DNA of 24,080 nt, from positions 1 to 24,080 of the IMG/VR virus record IMGVR_UViG_3300034375_006207; one strand, given 5' to 3'. Shown piece after piece: positions 11,033 through 20,284 of the stretch. A program made the position numbers and the translations under genes. Below the pieces are notes generated by a model. The model was not told the DNA's origin, did no database searches, and saw only the letters and a list, made by a program, of their open reading frames with translations. Each line of letters opens with the position of its first letter. Within the stretch, counting starts at the first letter, position 1. Source of the DNA: a virus.

Positions 11033-11043
11033 CAAGTATATCG

Positions 11044-11134
11044 AAGCCAAATTAGGACTCGAACCTAAAATTTATACAACAAAACTTTATTTACCATTTT
11101 TTGTGTATATGTTTTACCGTTAAACTACTTGGCT
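11044..11134 (-). tRNA. tRNA-Gln(UUG)-like gene with a 20-nt insertion in the anticodon arm
   Basis: On the minus strand a cloverleaf is complete apart from one anomaly. The acceptor is AGCCAAG/TTTGGCT (one G-T), followed by U8-A9, D stem GTTT/AAAC with loop AACGGTA, anticodon stem TATAC/GTATA, a 4-nt variable region, and T stem TTAGG/CCTAA with loop TTCGAGT. The anticodon stem closes 27 nt instead of 7. Its last 7 nt (TTTTGTT) form a canonical-looking loop with anticodon TTG (Gln), and the 20 nt before it (11085-11104) are extra. The insertion can pair with the loop (ACAAAA with TTTTGT), making one long extended hairpin. The discriminator would be U where Gln tRNAs normally have G, and position 37 would be U where a purine is usual. 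It could be an intron-bearing tRNA, a decoy, or a decayed gene. Confidence 0.6.
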
Positions 11135-12681: not shown

Positions 12682-12705
12682 AATTTTGATTTAAATAAAT
12701 AAAAT

Positions 12706-12767
12706 AACAAGGTGCGCTAGATGTCTTAGTAGGTTTTATTCATGCGATGATGACACCATACCTTGTT
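12706..12767 (-). ncRNA. Structured element E1
   Basis: The outer stem AACAAGGT/ACCTTGTT (12706-12713 with 12760-12767) has 8 perfect bp. An inner stem (720-725 with 752-757 of 12 kb) pairs fully on the minus strand with one G-U wobble, but gives an A-C mismatch on the plus strand; this points to the minus strand as the RNA. The minus-strand 3' side runs into a T-rich tail. No known family recognised. Confidence 0.5.
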
Positions 12768-12782
12768 TGTCTGCTTAATACC

Positions 12783-12853
12783 CCTGACTTTACAGAGCCT
12801 AACTCGGAAGTTAGATTTAAAATAGATTTAGTATTTTATTTAATACATACAGG
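12783..12853 (-). ncRNA. Structured element E2 with a UNCG-type hairpin
   Basis: A perfect 6-bp hairpin CTAACT/AGTTAG (12799-12814) has on the minus strand the loop TCCG, a UNCG-type tetraloop. A second hairpin GTATT/AATAC lies at 12831-12846. Weak outer pairing CCTG/CAGG (12783-12786 with 12850-12853) may close the unit. Weaker than its neighbours as a single structure. Confidence 0.35.
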
Positions 12854-12863
12854 TCATTCGCTA

Positions 12864-12907
12864 AGAGTATAACAAGGAGCAAATAAATGCTTCCCACTAT
12901 ATACTCT
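12864..12907 (-). ncRNA. Structured element E3
   Basis: The outer stem AGAGTATA/TATACTCT (12864-12871 with 12900-12907) has 8 perfect bp. It encloses a second stem, GGAGCA with TGCTTCC (12876-12881 with 12888-12894, one bulge), around a 6-nt loop. The nested arrangement in 44 nt makes a rod-like hairpin. It lies 15 nt downstream (minus direction) of the membrane protein gene stop, but has no clean T tail. Confidence 0.45.
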
Positions 12908-12922
12908 AACCTATGTTCTTTT

Positions 12923-13354
12923 CTAAACATATTTATACTTTTCATTTGGATCCATAGAAAGATAAGATATTCCTAATACTATAAACAATGTTGTAAATAA
13001 TACTGATACCATTATCAAAGCATTTGCTCCATAAATATCGGTACTAGGTCTAGCAGCTTCATACAAAGCTGTTCCTGCCATAAGACCGCAAAATAAAGTA
13101 ATCATAGCTATCAATTTAGCTATAAATGTCTTTTTCTTTGTTTTCTTTTTAGGAATAAATTCGTTTTCTTGTCTAGCAATAAGTTTTTTAGAACTAAGTT
13201 CTATACTAAAACATATAATGTGTAGTAAAAACGTTGTAGTTTTAATTGCTTTTCTTGTAGAATCTACTTTTTTATAAGAAGTTCTTCCAATTGCTAATCC
13301 TATAATAGGAAAAGTTGTTATGCTTAATGTAAACTTTCGATTTAAAATGTTCAT
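12923..13354 (-). CDS. Membrane protein with basic middle segment
   Basis: A 143-residue protein. Two clear membrane helices lie at about residues 78-97 (FIAKLIAMITLFCGLMAGTA) and 109-131. Residues 38-52 (TTTFLLHIICFSIEL) may form a third, weaker segment. A very basic stretch (PKKKTKKKTF) just before the first clear helix should be cytoplasmic. The neighbours are structured non-coding elements on both sides, so it stands alone. No family recognised. A holin or superinfection-exclusion role is possible but not shown. Confidence 0.6.
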   Translation of the reverse strand: MNILNRKFTLSITTFPIIGLAIGRTSYKKVDSTRKAIKTTTFLLHIICFSIELSSKKLIARQENEFIPKKKTKKKTFIAKLIAMITLFCGLMAGTALYEAARPSTDIYGANALIMVSVLFTTLFIVLGISYLSMDPNEKYKYV

Positions 13355-13387
13355 AATATATGATTTTTAATTTATAATTACAGTTTA

Positions 13388-13526
13388 ATAGTACACAAGA
13401 ACTATCCAGGAATTCATGCTCATCTGGAGTCGATATCATTCTTAATTAAATAAGTATAGAGTGTGCTTCTTAATTTACAGATCTATTGATACAAGAAATT
13501 CAATTCTTAACATTCTTGTGTACTAT
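13388..13526 (-). ncRNA. Structured element S7 closed by a perfect 14-bp stem
   Basis: The arms ATAGTACACAAGAA (13388-13401) and TTCTTGTGTACTAT (13513-13526) are perfectly complementary over 14 bp and enclose 111 nt. Inside, smaller hairpins are possible: TCCAG/CTGGA at the left, AATTAA/TTAATT in the middle, AAGAA/TTCTT at the right (minus-strand reading). There is no supportable ORF. The size and design resemble the element at 5391-5543. Confidence 0.55.
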
Positions 13527-13527
13527 A

Positions 13528-13550
13528 CATTTACCATTCAGCAGTAAATG
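13528..13550 (-). other. Hairpin between element S7 and the tRNA-like gene
   Basis: A perfect 7-bp stem CATTTAC/GTAAATG with a 9-nt loop, one base from the end of element S7 and 6 nt from the 3' end of the tRNA-like gene. It may be a processing signal between the two RNAs. There is no T run to suggest termination. Confidence 0.45.
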
Positions 13551-13556
13551 ATTTAG

Positions 13557-13628
13557 TGGCAGTAATAGGATTCGAACCTATACATTCCAGACCCATCATA
13601 AGAGCTATCATTCCTATGTGGTACTGCC
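13557..13628 (-). tRNA. tRNA-like gene with degenerate D arm
   Basis: The minus strand shows a perfect 7-bp acceptor GGCAGTA/TACTGCC, discriminator A, and a perfect T arm ATAGG-TTCGAAT-CCTAT in exactly the right place; the total length of 72 nt is normal. The D arm is reduced to about 3 bp (CAT/ATG), and U8-A9 are replaced by CC. The anticodon stem is imperfect (GCTC/GGGT around loop TTATGAT; apparent anticodon ATG, His). It may be a decayed tRNA, a tRNA with an unusual core, or a tRNA mimic. Its 5' 15 nt overlap the end of the small gene 13614-13730. Confidence 0.5.
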
Positions 13629-13730
13629 ATTTTTATGCTTCTTCTTGCGATAGTACTTAGACTTATCACGATAGACTTGCTTTTTGCAAGCCTCTTGAAT
13701 TTCTTGTTGTGTTACTACAATCTTTTTCAT
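13614..13730 (-). CDS. Very small basic protein whose end overlaps a tRNA-like gene
   Basis: A 38-codon frame: MKKIVVTQQEIQEACKKQVY followed by a basic, Lys/Tyr/Arg-rich tail ending KNGSTT. The predicted helix and strong positive charge suggest nucleic-acid binding. It starts 10 nt downstream of the 13741-13971 gene in an A/T-rich leader typical of this genome. The last five codons lie in the acceptor region of the tRNA-like gene. Small size makes this tentative. Confidence 0.5.
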   Translation of the reverse strand: MKKIVVTQQEIQEACKKQVYRDKSKYYRKKKHKNGSTT

Positions 13731-13740
13731 AATTATTAAT

Positions 13741-13971
13741 TTATTTAATTCTACCAACTACTTCACGATAATGAAAAGTATACATATCACATCCACAACC
13801 ACAACCATCAGATCCGCCCATTTTAATGACACGTTTATTATCATAATCAATTTTATACTCAAGATATTGCCACATATATCCGCTGAACCAATTATGATTA
13901 CGAACACCTTTACTTTTGTTTTTATAATCAACGTAGTGTTCAGCTTTTTTTATTGTATTGAAAACAGTCAT
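13741..13971 (-). CDS. Small Cys-rich protein
   Basis: The frame could open at 14007, but that start lies in the closing stem of element S6, so I choose the ATG at 13971, which has a normal AT-rich leader; 76 residues. The protein is basic and aromatic with a compact cluster GGSDGCGCGCDMYTFHY near residues 52-68. Three cysteines alternating with glycines, followed by Asp and His, could bind a metal ion. No family recognised. Confidence 0.65.
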   Translation of the reverse strand: MTVFNTIKKAEHYVDYKNKSKGVRNHNWFSGYMWQYLEYKIDYDNKRVIKMGGSDGCGCGCDMYTFHYREVVGRIK

Positions 13972-14002
13972 AATAATATGTATTAAGTTATAAAATAAAA
14001 AA

Positions 14003-14093
14003 GGCAATGATTAGGTTAGTCAGCTCCACCAATAGGATACTACATACTAAAGCCGAAGCTATATTTAGTATGCCTAACTTGTCGCTCATTGCC
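14003..14093 (-). ncRNA. Multibranch structured RNA-like element S6 with a UUCG tetraloop
   Basis: The closing stem GGCAATGA/TCATTGCC (14003-14010 with 14086-14093) has 8 perfect bp and continues with TTAGG/CCTAA (14011-14015 with 14073-14077). Inside is a hairpin CATACTAAA/TTTAGTATG (14043-14072); on the minus strand it is capped by AGC-TTCG-GCT, the very stable C(UUCG)G loop. A second small arm (AGT, TCC / GGA, ACT; 14018-14041) completes a three-way junction. The minus-strand 3' end is followed at once by six T, like a terminator tail. This is the best-supported of the array and indicates minus-strand transcription. Confidence 0.65.
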
Positions 14094-14103
14094 AAAAGCG
14101 AAA

Positions 14104-14146
14104 CATAAGATAGCATTGTCTCCTGATTTTAGACCCTATTCTTATG
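14104..14146 (-). ncRNA. Structured element S5
   Basis: CATAAGA/TCTTATG plus TAG/CTA gives 10 bp with one bulge (14104-14113 with 14136-14146), enclosing a GTCT/AGAC hairpin (14118-14134). It lies 10 nt from element S6. Confidence 0.45.
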
Positions 14147-14168
14147 ATACTACAGGTAATTATAAAAT

Positions 14169-14217
14169 TGAGCCATAACAATATAAATCGCTATGGCTCA
14201 TCAATGCTTTAAGCATT
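14169..14217 (-). ncRNA. Structured element S4
   Basis: A perfect 9-bp hairpin TGAGCCATA/TATGGCTCA (14169-14177 with 14192-14200) with a 14-nt loop, followed after 2 nt by the near-perfect palindrome AATGCTT-T-AAGCATT (14203-14217). No T run and no ORF. Confidence 0.45.
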
Positions 14218-14226
14218 AGGGTTGGC

Positions 14227-14296
14227 GATGTTGTCTAACTCCGTTAGAACTCCATCAATAATGACTAACTGATACATAATGTTATAAGTAATTATG
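14227..14296 (-). other. Two small hairpins between elements S4 and S1
   Basis: TCTAAC/GTTAGA with a 3-nt loop (14234-14248), closed by GATG/CATC (14227-14230 with 14253-14256), and CATAAT/ATTATG with a 10-nt loop (14275-14296). The first resembles the CTAACT hairpin of element E2 in sequence as well as shape. Individually weak. Confidence 0.35.
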
Positions 14297-14320
14297 TTAT
14301 TATTAAACTAAAAGATTATT

Positions 14321-14397
14321 TCTTCATCATAATAGATCCATTCTAGATGTTCACAGCGCTATCACCTGCGTGAAGATCCTTACTATTATGATGAAGA
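14321..14397 (-). ncRNA. Structured element S1 closed by a perfect 15-bp stem
   Basis: TCTTCATCATAATAG (14321-14335) is perfectly complementary to CTATTATGATGAAGA (14383-14397). The 47 nt between contain TTCAC/GTGAA (14350-14354 with 14370-14374) and a possible CAT/ATG mini-stem. This is the longest perfect stem in the window. It lies just past the terminator of the 14445-14711 gene in the minus direction, so it needs its own promoter or read-through. Confidence 0.6.
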
Positions 14398-14400
14398 CAG

Positions 14401-14432
14401 AAAGAGAAAAGAGTGTCAGATAACTAACACTC
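14401..14432 (-). terminator. Rho-independent terminator of the GC-rich gene
   Basis: On the minus strand GAGTGTTAG-TTAT-CTGACACTC forms 9 bp with one T-G wobble (14411-14419 with 14424-14432), followed by TTTTCTCTTT. On the plus strand the wobble becomes an A-C mismatch and the tail is not T-rich, so it works in the minus direction. It lies 12 nt past the 14445 stop. Confidence 0.82.
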
Positions 14433-14444
14433 GTGTGGTACGCA

Positions 14445-14711
14445 TCATTTGATACGCACCACCTTGCCCACGACACGACCATCGTACTCCTGTGGGATGA
14501 TGTCCAACTCGTCGCTCCAATCCTCCTTGGACTTGCCGTACTGCTCAGCTTTCGCTTGAGTAACACCGTCCAAGACGAACTCGAATCCCGTTAGACATTG
14601 AGAAGCCACGACTTCATCTCCCGTGACTTTAGAGAACATCAACATTCGCGTGCCCTTAGAGGATTCAACAAAACGTTGGAATTTAATCTTTGCTTTTTTA
14701 GCTTTTGCCAT
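14445..14711 (-). CDS. Small GC-rich basic protein, first leftward gene
   Basis: An 88-residue protein, MAKAKKAKIKFQRFVESSKG at the start, basic at the N terminus and more acidic later (SKEDWSDELDIIPQE). I do not recognise the family. The base composition is very unlike the surroundings: over 14461-14520 I count 34 G+C of 60, against about one third in the neighbours. This means either strong codon selection for very high expression, as its isolated position with a private terminator also suggests, or recent transfer. As the first gene left of the divergent control region it is a good candidate for an immediate-early, DNA- or ribosome-associated protein. Confidence 0.8.
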   Translation of the reverse strand: MAKAKKAKIKFQRFVESSKGTRMLMFSKVTGDEVVASQCLTGFEFVLDGVTQAKAEQYGKSKEDWSDELDIIPQEYDGRVVGKVVRIK

Positions 14712-14929
14712 AATTGAAAATTGAACGTAGGGAATGGTTTGCCCCCGCTCACTTTCAACCCAGGTCGTTGACTGTGCTAGTTACCACTCTTACAAAATTT
14801 TATAGCTCATATAAAAATACGGGGGGTATATTCACCAATTAGAAAAAGACTACCAAATAAGAATAAGTGTAAAAAATAAAATATCAGGCTATAGACTAGA
14901 CTACTACTGACACACAGAGGATTTAGGGT

Positions 14930-14988
14930 GGTACTAAAAATAGTACCTAAAACGCCCTATAGGTACTAAAAATAGTACTTTTGTACTA
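14930..14988. promoter_or_regulatory. Tandem palindromic operator in the divergent control region
   Basis: Two near-identical palindromes lie at 14930-14947 (GGTACTA-AAAA-TAGTACC, 7-bp arms) and 14963-14978 (GTACTA-AAAA-TAGTAC, 6-bp arms). Their centres are 32 bp apart, about three helical turns, so bound dimers would face the same side. A further half-site GTACTA lies at 14983-14988 and another at 15017-15022 over the predicted transcription start and the ATG. This is a likely binding site for an autoregulator or an origin-like iteron set. The rest of the gap 14712-15021 holds no ORF; a leftward promoter is not clear, the nearest match on the minus strand being TAAAATTTTG around 14795-14804. 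Confidence 0.7.
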
Positions 14989-15009
14989 GTTATTGTAATA
15001 TATTTATAA

Positions 15010-15017
15010 TATCTTTG
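15010..15017 (+). promoter_or_regulatory. Bacteroidota-type promoter box before the RepL-like gene
   Basis: TATCTTTG matches TAnnTTTG. It ends 4 nt before the ATG at 15022, so transcription should start at or next to the start codon (leaderless mRNA). TTG trinucleotides upstream are not at the usual -33 spacing. Confidence 0.7.
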
Positions 15018-15021
15018 TACT

Positions 15022-17871: not shown

Positions 17872-18126
17872 ATGGATAACATTTGGGAAAATAAACAAAA
17901 AATATTATCAGGAATTAAAAACCTGATATTAAAAAATGAATTTATAGAAGAAGTAGCTGAGGCTAGAAATACTATCTGCTCAGACTGTGAACATAAGTCT
18001 ACAAACTGTGCAGCTCTTATTTCTTCTTGTTGTTCAATCTGTGGATGTTCTTTAAAATTTAAAACACGCTCATTAGAATCTTCTTGTCCAATAGATAAAT
18101 GGCCAGCATTAAATGATAAACAATAA
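17872..18126 (+). CDS. Zinc-ribbon protein next to the large terminase
   Basis: An 84-residue protein. The C-terminal half holds a run of cysteines: CSDC (36-39), a further Cys near 47, CCSICGCSL (53-61) and CPIDKW (72-77). The pattern CxxC ... CxxCGC ... CPxxKW is common in small phage proteins lying near packaging genes and should bind one or two zinc ions. The N-terminal 35 residues are a helix. It starts 2 nt after the previous gene and overlaps the terminase start by 14 nt. A packaging-related or DNA-binding role is inferred from position. Confidence 0.75.
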   Translation: MDNIWENKQKILSGIKNLILKNEFIEEVAEARNTICSDCEHKSTNCAALISSCCSICGCSLKFKTRSLESSCPIDKWPALNDKQ

Positions 18127-20284
18127 GAACTTTAGATTAGATGAGATACCACAATTCCATCCTATACTAGAACATTATGAGAGACTTTCATTTTGGAAAG
18201 AAGAAAAACGTAAATGTATAGAAGGATATTGGCAACAAGGCAAATGGATGCCTGGGCCGCTATACTATTACATAAATTTCCATAACATACAATTTGAAGA
18301 TGATTCATCTGTATCGCAAGCATTTGGCTTACCGTTCTTACGTGATATAGATTGGGAACTATTTTTAATCTACGAAGAATGCCGAGGATTCTCAGGCTTT
18401 ACTAATGACAAGAAATATACATGTGATCGTAAATACGGTCCTGAAAAAGAATTAGCTCTTAAGCTACAACGTATAACTAAAGAAGAATTAAAGAAACTAG
18501 AATACGTACCTGCACGAGAATATCTTAGAAAGAACCACGGTAAGAATCTAGGAAAGCCTCTGTATAAAAATTCTGCAAAACACTTTATAAGTATCCAGGC
18601 ACGGGGATCTGGTAAGAGTTATTCGACATCGGGGATAGCCAACCATAATTTTTTATTTGATGGGGCTACAGATTATAACGATTATTTAGCTAGAAAGAAA
18701 ACTAAAAACTTTTTAGCATCTGATACAATTATTGGGGCTATTGATACTAAGTATTCGATACCTCTTATGAAAAAAGTTACAACTGCATTAGATTTATTAG
18801 CGGGAGATTTTCAACTAGGAGACGAATATTATCCGTCGCCACTATCAATATCTCACACAGGTTCTTTTATGGCTAACAGAGAAGCAACTACAAGAACAGG
18901 CTCTGTGATGCGACATCGTACATTTAAAGATAACCCGCTAGCAGCTAACGGAACACGGCCTAACTTAGTAGCACTAGATGAGGTTGGTTTCATGTATAAT
19001 ATAAAAGAATCTTGGGGAGCAATTGAAGCAACACAAGCATCTAAAGCAAAAAAGAATCTTGTAATATGGGCCCTAGGGACAGGAGGATTAGTATCTGGAA
19101 AAGCTGCACTATACGCAGAAACTATATTTAGAAATCCTCATGATTACAATTGCGTAGAGTTTGAGGACATATTTGAAAATAGAGGAACTATAGGATACTT
19201 TGTACCATACTCTCTAACACTCAATGAATTTAAAAAAGGCCCTAACCTTATTACTAATGAAGAGCTGTCTAGAGTATTTATAGAAAGTAAAAGAGACGTA
19301 GCTAAAAAGTCTCCTGATCCAACAGTATACCAAACTGAAATAATTAACGGACCGATGTTGCCGTCGGAAGCTTTCTTAATTTTAGAAGGAGCATTTTTCC
19401 CAACACTACAATTAAAAGAGCAGCTAGCAGAAGTTGAAGGAGGTAAATATGCTAAGTTCCAAGATGCAAGTTTTAAAGGTATATTATCATTTAACGATAG
19501 AAACGAAGTAGAGTTTAGTACCATTCAGGATCTAAAACCAATAAGAAAATTCCCATTGCAACGTAATGACGATAAGCGAGGATGCGTAGAAATATGGGTA
19601 AAGCCTCAAAAAAATGATGAGGGCGTAGTTCCTAGAAATGTATACATAGCAGGAATAGACGTTGTAGATAAAGATAAGTCTACTACTGACTCTCTTCCGT
19701 CTATATTTATAATGAATAGATTAACAAGACAACTTGTAGCAGAATATACAGGTAGAACTTCTGAAGCAAAAGATTTTTATGAAATCTGTAGAAAACTTCT
19801 GTTATATTATAACGCTATAGGTATGTATGAGAAAAACCTTATCGGTTTATTTAATTACTTTGATCGCCATAAGTGCACATATTTACTTGCAGACACGCCT
19901 TATCAATTGCGGTCTTCTGATACATATAAACAAACTGGTAACACATCTAAAGGAATTAACGCATCAGCAACTGTTAACTCAGAAGGACGTAATATGGTTA
20001 AGTCTTGGTTACAAGAAACTACGTCGATTAATTCAGAAACTAAAATTTACGAAACTATATATTCTCCTGCACTTTTAACAGAGCTAGTTATGTGGAACCC
20101 ACAAGGCAACTTTGATAGAGTATCTGCGTTAATAATGCTTATGTGGTTAGATTCTACTATGTATAAACAGACAGAAAAACGTGTAGAAGAAGTTAAAACA
20201 TTTCTAGATAATGATTATTTTTCTCAGATGGGCGTTTTAAAAAAGAAACCTACTGGAACTATAGATTCAAATTTTTATTCATAG
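18113..20284 (+). CDS. terL: Large terminase subunit
   Basis: A 723-residue DNA-packaging motor. ATPase domain: Walker A is ARGSGKSY at about residues 162-169, and Walker B is NLVALDEVGF at about 283-292 with the catalytic Glu after Asp. Nuclease domain: a first acidic motif IAGIDVVDKD (about 511-520) and a second LLADTPY (about 591-597) fit the RNase H-like metal-binding residues that cut concatemers. The protein is longer than T4-type TerL by about 100 residues, with an extended N terminus containing MPGPLYYYINF. It works with the portal encoded next. An exact promoter box (TAGATTTG) overlaps its stop region. Confidence 0.95.
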   Translation: MINNKNFRLDEIPQFHPILEHYERLSFWKEEKRKCIEGYWQQGKWMPGPLYYYINFHNIQFEDDSSVSQAFGLPFLRDIDWELFLIYEECRGFSGFTNDKKYTCDRKYGPEKELALKLQRITKEELKKLEYVPAREYLRKNHGKNLGKPLYKNSAKHFISIQARGSGKSYSTSGIANHNFLFDGATDYNDYLARKKTKNFLASDTIIGAIDTKYSIPLMKKVTTALDLLAGDFQLGDEYYPSPLSISHTGSFMANREATTRTGSVMRHRTFKDNPLAANGTRPNLVALDEVGFMYNIKESWGAIEATQASKAKKNLVIWALGTGGLVSGKAALYAETIFRNPHDYNCVEFEDIFENRGTIGYFVPYSLTLNEFKKGPNLITNEELSRVFIESKRDVAKKSPDPTVYQTEIINGPMLPSEAFLILEGAFFPTLQLKEQLAEVEGGKYAKFQDASFKGILSFNDRNEVEFSTIQDLKPIRKFPLQRNDDKRGCVEIWVKPQKNDEGVVPRNVYIAGIDVVDKDKSTTDSLPSIFIMNRLTRQLVAEYTGRTSEAKDFYEICRKLLLYYNAIGMYEKNLIGLFNYFDRHKCTYLLADTPYQLRSSDTYKQTGNTSKGINASATVNSEGRNMVKSWLQETTSINSETKIYETIYSPALLTELVMWNPQGNFDRVSALIMLMWLDSTMYKQTEKRVEEVKTFLDNDYFSQMGVLKKKPTGTIDSNFYS

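Follow-up and report, generated by a model that had tools for sequence, protein, structure and literature searches.

The DNA analysed here (the window: 24,080 bases, IMG/VR record IMGVR_UViG_3300034375_006207, G000) is a piece of the genome of an environmental crAss-like phage, and its stretch from about 12.7 to 14.4 kb holds a series of structured elements (E1 to E7 and a tRNA-like RNA). With somewhat better than even confidence, we read this region as the non-coding RNA part of an exchangeable, gene-poor cargo island that includes a non-decoding tRNA mimic. Comparison with related phages established the conservation, pairing and modularity of the elements, the minus strand as the RNA strand of E1, E2 and E6, and the lack of a conserved standard anticodon arm in the tRNA-like RNA. 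The window was placed among crAss-like phages, which are among the most abundant viruses of Bacteroidota, by its annotated rightward TerL gene (18113-20284), its leftward DNA polymerase A gene and the similarities of its TerL (33% identity to Cellulophaga phi14:2, about 30% to Bacteroides crAss-like phages). The region forms the head of a leftward gene row and adjoins a divergent region with palindromes (TACTAAAAATAGTA). Its main elements are:

12697-12830, minus strand: E1, a predicted RNA element in which an 8-bp closing stem (12706-12767) surrounds conserved single-stranded blocks and is preceded by hairpins at 12782-12797 and 12798-12814
12849-12914, minus strand: E2, a long hairpin within a 37-codon open reading frame (ORF; 12817-12930, start at 12930)
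13384-13526, no strand assigned: E3, a 14-bp closing stem enclosing smaller hairpins
13558-13628, minus strand: the tRNA-like RNA, with a 7-bp acceptor stem, a 10-bp hairpin replacing the D and anticodon arms, an 11-nt linker and a T arm
14003-14160, minus strand (tentative for E4): E4, an 8-bp closing stem (14003/14093) with a nested UUCG hairpin, and E5, a co-conserved stretch upstream of it
14320-14400, no strand assigned: E7, a 15-bp stem enclosing an apical core that does not vary (CACGCAGGUGAUAGCGCUGUG, read on the minus strand)

Relatives were taken from a TerL scan of IMG/VR that confirmed 109, of which the best 80 were kept (L numbers denote phage loci), and homologues of each unit were sought with nhmmer on these 80 TerL loci and then on the complete set of loci. 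Three loci (L001, L002 and L083; 99.96-99.97% identity) belong to the same species as the window, and L001 and L002 were omitted from one analysis of relatives. A megablast of the whole window against the phage collection gave no match, and a distant blastn of 12690-14460 gave a single match, inside a coding stretch (13924-13995). Rfam searches over the region, at the gathering threshold and at E up to 10, returned tRNA alone at plausible strength. The search for homologous regions in relatives was productive for E1 and the tRNA-like RNA (seven phages each), E2 (four), E7 (three) and E4/E5 (two), and compensatory changes, scored against 500 shuffles each, were found on the minus strand of E1, E2 and E6. 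E3 had no homologue outside the species of the window in the complete set of loci.

Six relatives share E1 with the window (L003, L011, L013, L050, L053 and L092; complete set of loci). All 13 counted pairs are paired in the seven sequences, a score matched by none of the 500 shuffles; the hairpin at 12782-12797 carries compensatory changes at three of its five pairs, and the 8-bp closing stem is invariant throughout. In the four phages with E2, 98.9% of the 88 cells from its 22 pairs are paired (2 of 500 shuffles scored as high), with two-sided changes at four pairs. The 37-codon ORF was found in all four as well, with the nonsynonymous rate (dN) below the synonymous rate (dS) in six of six comparisons, and E2 is likely to be under both constraints, that of RNA pairing and that of the 37-residue peptide. 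E4/E5 is 96-97% identical to its counterpart in L008, the sole relative that has it, and the adjoining gene on one side is 75% identical; further on, a 38-codon ORF and the tRNA-like RNA are also 95-97% identical to L008. In E7 (the window, L003 and L013), the letters of the stem change yet still pair, and the core is unchanged. E1 and E2 thus appear to be RNA elements under selection, and E4/E5 and E7 are probably likewise.

Several candidates were set aside. E5 was rejected as an RNA element by itself because its folding was no better than that of shuffles (z-score, -0.1). When the E7 core was cut to 17 bases, 17 contigs matched, five of them known E7 carriers; the other 12 contigs (13 matches) had flanks without the E7 stem and were judged coincidental from their folds. 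The string UGAUAGC, seen by eye in both E7 and the tRNA-like loop, and a 10-base stretch of E1 that we took by eye to resemble 16S rRNA were dropped as possibly due to chance.

The same comparisons bear on whether the region is mostly protein-coding, i.e., a row of microprotein genes whose stems are a by-product of codon choice in AT-rich DNA. Both E2 and E6 hold conserved ORFs, 8-bp stems are common in shuffled sequence, and the original prediction, correct in finding only small genes interleaved among the units, had not noted that E2, E4, E6 and the tRNA-like RNA sit in or overlap small ORFs. However, the 42-codon frame covering E4 differs from L008 at four bases over 40 codons, all at first or second positions and none at third, the pairs of E2 covary, and the surroundings of E1 and of the tRNA-like RNA showed no common reading frame, so that a mostly coding region seems quite improbable to us.

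The closing arms described in the original prediction are present, both the long ones (15 bp at 14321/14397, 14 bp at 13388/13526 and 9 bp at 14169/14200) and those of 8 bp (12706/12767, 12864/12907, 13557/13629 and 14003/14093). Across 12700-14450 there are 15 perfect stems of at least 8 bp, whereas 60 dinucleotide shuffles averaged 8.6 (sd 3.1), and two of at least 10 bp, for which the shuffled mean was 0.63; one shuffle gave a stem of 16 bp. Bare stems therefore beat chance modestly and are suggestive only; as short stems are this common in AT-rich DNA, it is the relatives and not the stems that decide. Folding against shuffled controls, which had been proposed as a check, favored most units (minus-strand z: E6 -6.8, the terminator at 14411-14432 -4.7, E7 -4.1, E2 -3.2, E4 -3.1, E3 -2.9 and the tRNA-like RNA -2.8), but E1 was weak (-1.1 and -1.3 for its halves) and E5 showed no excess. 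The plus strand folded equally well or better for E3 (-4.3), E4 (-3.1), E7 (-5.5) and the second half of E1 (-2.2); the RNA strand can therefore not be read from folding alone. The assignment to the minus strand was instead supported by wobble pairs possible on that strand only, namely U-G in two of seven E1 sequences, G-U pairs in E2, a change from A-U to G-U in two of seven tRNA-like sequences and a similar change in E6 (below). Overall, structured elements unrelated in sequence do stand side by side here, several of them supported by relatives.

The element at 13558-13628 is probably a non-decoding tRNA-like RNA rather than a decoding tRNA. Its central hairpin, a fold supported by the relatives, consists of 3 bp, a bulged A, 7 bp and an 8-nt loop. 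Among the seven phages that carry it, all cells of the 22 pairs are paired and one pair varies; the 7-bp acceptor stem and the 5-bp T arm, with its UUCRANY loop, are paired in all seven copies. The original prediction had described T arms as missing from most units, which is right for the others but overlooks the perfect T arm of this one. A conserved 5-bp anticodon arm with a 7-nt loop was absent from the copies examined: just four pairs, two of them Watson-Crick, form in five of the six distinct copies and in two registers, and none form in L011.

ARAGORN called a tRNA-His(atg) at 13556-13628, as it did in L003, L011, L013 and L092, which would fit a true decoding tRNA (His, anticodon AUG) that has degenerated within an array of tRNAs in decay. 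Yet the nearly identical sequences of L008 and L091 were called "tRNA-???", the required anticodon stem is not kept (GGGU, GGAU and GGCC opposite an unchanged GCUC), and the Rfam tRNA model (RF00005) scored the window at 25.0 bits (13557-13628), below its cut-off of 29, and five records of other carriers at 20.4-23.2 bits. A decaying array also sits poorly with 69-70 of 71 bases kept across diverged phages and with other units that have no T arm; we regard this alternative as scarcely probable. The original prediction had judged a decayed array less likely, yet one unit is itself a tRNA derivative.

Conservation of the tRNA-like RNA extends well beyond close relatives. It is identical at 70 of 71 positions to that of L091 and at 69 of 71 to that of L092 (97-99%), phages whose TerL (from contigs of 114.9 and 57.3 kb, respectively) is 28-30% identical to that of the window over part of its length, and the copies of L013 and L092 are identical across all 71 bases. 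A covariance model of the seven copies, searched against 68 sources, also found a homologue in L042 (45.3 bits, E 7.6e-8) that shares the layout down to the bulged A and has different stem letters. The bacterial and archaeal genome collection gave no match in a search with the exact pattern only. Such near-perfect conservation among diverged phages points to exchangeable cargo that may act on a conserved host partner.

The composition of the surrounding island is consistent with the cargo reading. Units are gained and lost between close relatives and the backbone stays constant, which is why we regard them as behaving like cargo. In 19 loci, the island (6.5-3.3 kb left of TerL) is 25-81% non-coding (mean 46%), compared with averages of 26% for the DNA further to the left and 7% for the structural side, where ORFs of fewer than 40 codons are counted as non-coding; L001, L002, L004, L027 and loci with less than 9 kb left of TerL are omitted from this count, and L018 and L019 look like near-duplicates. 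Of overlapping 100-nt windows from 18 of these loci (without L018), 11.1% of those on the non-coding minus strand folded with z below -3, compared with 4.4% of coding windows and 1.8% of TerL windows.

Several points weigh against reading the region as a non-coding RNA island. The counting of short ORFs as non-coding is one, and plus-strand non-coding windows fold nearly as well (9.2% below z -3). A sigma-70 scan gave no excess of promoters (11 sites found, 12.6 expected). The comparisons draw on seven phages for E1, four for E2, three for E7, one relative for E4/E5 and none for E3. The proposed tRNA-like fold is slightly less stable than the unconstrained minimum-energy fold in the window, and the minimum differs in L011 too, the two coinciding in L008, L013, L091 and L092; its seven copies are also too alike to reveal covariation.

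As for the proposal of a cassette of at least eight small RNAs, its core is upheld by the pairing of E1, E2 and E6, kept by compensatory minus-strand changes, and by an island rich in non-coding DNA. Not all eight units qualify as small RNAs, however: one is a terminator (14411-14432) and another a micropeptide gene (E6), E5 shows no fold signal of its own, and E3 was found in one species only. Among the targets then suggested, one acting on tRNA is the most plausible, given the tRNA-like unit. Transcription would run leftward, presumably starting within the divergent region (14.8-15.0 kb), and the transcript would be partitioned by the terminators at 14411-14432 and 14169-14200 and by the structured units. 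With its acceptor stem and T arm intact, the tRNA-like RNA could be matured by host tRNA enzymes and might then occupy a host partner as a decoy; the likeliest candidate would be a protein that binds the acceptor/T-arm half, such as EF-Tu, a tRNA-processing enzyme or a tRNA-directed defense nuclease.

The remaining features of the region are:

13614-13730, minus strand: 38-codon ORF whose end overlaps the tRNA-like RNA, with weak similarity to DUF7230 (Pfam, 26.4 bits; cut-off, 27)
13758-13985, minus strand: small protein gene of 75-76 codons, 75% identical in DNA to L008
14169-14200, minus strand: E6 terminator-like hairpin, a 14-pair stem followed by a T-rich tail
14203-14217, minus strand: small hairpin, recognized by eye in the alignment, whose loop carries the micropeptide stop codon
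14209-14277, minus strand: E6 micropeptide ORF, 22 codons (MYQLVIIDGVLTELDNIANPNA)
14411-14432, minus strand: intrinsic terminator of the gene at 14445-14711, a 9-pair stem followed by TTTTCTCTTT
14800-15021, no strand assigned: putative divergent promoter/operator region with the palindromes noted above

Rather than a small RNA, E6 is a gene for a micropeptide followed by a terminator-like hairpin. An nhmmer search of the 80 TerL loci gave 24 matches to it, including L001 and L002, and the peptide pattern was readable in 22 of 25 rows, three of these from the species of the window; in the remaining rows the script took another frame (L031 and L028) or found none (L026, at a contig end). In 18 sequences, 12 pairs of the hairpin are 91.7% paired with 20 two-sided cells, a score reached by none of the 500 shuffles, and a change from C-G to U-G in seven of the 18 identifies the minus strand as the RNA. 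In the relatives, the peptide (...VVNGVVTxxxWxxNPNA-stop) ends with its stop codon in the loop of the small hairpin at 14203-14217, whose arms are both changed in L029/L030, L073 and L015/L021/L022/L071 (judged by eye, not counted by a tool); the arrangement across 14203-14277 resembles that of leader peptides.

Alternatively, the conserved units could be cis-acting signals (terminators, leader or attenuator hairpins, or RNase III sites) controlling the levels of the small genes rather than separate RNAs. Two clear terminator-like hairpins are present, the E6 hairpin follows a short ORF much as leader-peptide attenuators do, and a T-rich stretch comes after the terminal stem of E1. On the other hand, the genes flanking E1 and the tRNA-like RNA vary between phages, and a terminator would not account for the tRNA-like RNA, the apical core of E7 or the blocks of E1 that never vary. 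We consider cis-acting signals a possible but rather doubtful account of the region as a whole, and retain the non-coding RNA reading.

Among the neighboring genes, the 38-codon ORF has dN well below dS against L003, L008 and L091. The gene at 13758-13985 had no match in Pfam or PHROG searches, and the DNA at its start (13924-13995) is 79% identical to LR745206.1, a 634-kb uncultured phage record. The divergent region is conserved (31 nhmmer hits, some on both strands owing to the palindromes). Ahead of the first leftward gene lies a further conserved stretch, leader E9 (14726-14790; GTGGTTAC...TCAACGACCCC...GGGG...CCCC), with 33 nhmmer hits; the genes behind E9-type stretches look different between phages, and parts of it are repeated in L029, L035, L061 and L050. 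A structured leader is not claimed at E9 because RNAalifold yielded three pairs and no consensus fold.

The tRNA-like RNA of the window is not the sole unit with an acceptor stem and T arm in these loci. A scan for a 7-bp acceptor with a T arm found 20 distinct units, and in 18 records the T-arm pattern matched 19 times, compared with once for the reversed control pattern. Several units have a D arm, which we take to be like that of tRNA-Leu, followed by another structure in place of the anticodon arm; those with such a D arm, an intact T arm and 40-100 nt of other structure are L028:1949-2107, L033:969-1106, L033:1173-1333, L035:3107-3212, L068:471-575 and L102 (in G014). Anticodon arms were tested in 22 distinct units with all seven acceptor pairs (L110, L106 and L114, with six of seven, were omitted, and the T arm of one of the 22, L076, may have arisen by chance within coding DNA). 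Two units showed a full 5-pair arm (L034, and L109 from the L091 phage), five passed a lax 4-pair test alone, all of them copies of the tRNA-like RNA of the window, and 15 passed neither; of 24 control tRNAs from the phage PhiCrAssBcn17, 23 passed the lax test. Elsewhere in the window, a "tRNA-Leu" at 11043-11134 (minus strand) scored 47.3 bits, above the Rfam cut-off, and fails the anticodon-arm test; a 27-nt insertion in its anticodon loop can lengthen the anticodon stem into a long hairpin.

In the cultured crAss-like phage PhiCrAssBcn17 (OQ221552.1), a gene with a TROVE domain (Ro60-like) lies at L123:31091-32509 (record position, plus 50,000) and is followed at L123:32764-33156 by two tRNA-like RNAs in which a long insert replaces the anticodon arm and which both contain AGAGUUACUUCAA; the pair are candidate Y RNAs. 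This arrangement is why we considered whether the tRNA-like RNA of the window is an orphan bacterial Y RNA, one that works with a Ro60 (TROVE) protein from the phage or, failing that, from the host. Chen et al. 2014, a paper cited in PMC4726728, present bacterial Y RNAs as tRNA mimics in their title. Both kinds of RNA are tRNA-like without a standard anticodon arm, but that of the window has no D arm and measures only 71 nt. No TROVE match was found in 22 records of its group, which may be fragments and include two larger contigs of its species; the same search found the gene in one of 14 control genomes. The YrlA model (RF02553) gave no match over its cut-off in 18 records, a weak test because it missed the TROVE-adjacent RNAs of PhiCrAssBcn17 as well, and a few Ro60-binding motif strings, which do not amount to a validated model, were absent from the tRNA-like RNA. 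With neither TROVE nor YrlA matches in its group, it was not classed as a Y RNA, an identity that we consider unlikely, and it may, by analogy, work like one.

Other known RNAs offer partial parallels to the proposed tRNA mimic and its island. Like tRNA (RF00005), the tRNA-like RNA has a 7-bp acceptor stem, a canonical T arm (GGUUCGAAUCC) and tRNA length, and it departs from tRNA in having one bulged hairpin for the D and anticodon arms. The tRNA-like domain of transfer-messenger RNA (tmRNA) also has an acceptor stem and T arm and no anticodon arm, but 71 nt are too short for a tag reading frame, and ARAGORN called no tmRNA in the window. The tRNA cluster of phage T4 yields small stable non-tRNA RNAs, C and D, which the proposed island would resemble as a source of small stable RNAs in a phage tRNA region. 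GOLLD and ROOL are described in excerpts of PMC12286853 as RNAs of phages and prophages whose function is unknown and which often lie close to tRNA islands. They recall an ornate RNA of about 0.8-1 kb in the islands of relatives, whereas the window has no large RNA; no Rfam match to GOLLD or ROOL was found in the window or the scanned relatives, which included L013, L091, L092 and L022 (L062 and L005 lay outside the scan). Phage RNA cassettes are already known, and what would be new is a non-coding RNA cargo island with a non-decoding tRNA-like RNA; titles found by a literature search, whose reach excluded most subscription papers, reported no such RNAs in crAss-like phages.

More tentatively, and with rather less than even confidence, crAss-like phages of the environment may keep a dedicated non-coding RNA island that is traded between lineages and carries decoy tRNA-like RNAs and, in relatives, the new ornate RNA. 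The decoys would form a class that keeps the acceptor stem and T arm and replaces the anticodon arm, here even dispensing with the D arm, and tRNA finders would count some of its members as tRNAs. If this is true, crAss-like phages give an exchangeable locus to RNA instead of protein tools, ARAGORN tRNA counts in such phages include RNAs unable to decode, and a 71-nt RNA so conserved at 28-30% TerL identity would be a direct bait for its host partner.

The ornate RNA, absent from the window, spans about 770-1000 nt on the minus strand (L013:1328-2330, L091:2488-3484, L092:6643-7511, L062:2425-3205 and L022:4518-5285), with a partial copy in L005:2-638 and a fragment in L060. Of its 174 predicted pairs, in a fold made without a shuffled control, 90 are changed on both sides in one or more of the five sequences compared. 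The longest frames of 45, 61, 130, 30 and 35 codons indicate that no long frame is shared, and Rfam gave no match there in the scanned carriers (L013, L091, L092 and L022). In L013, the ornate RNA sits between the small ORF and the tRNA-like RNA, two features that overlap in the window.

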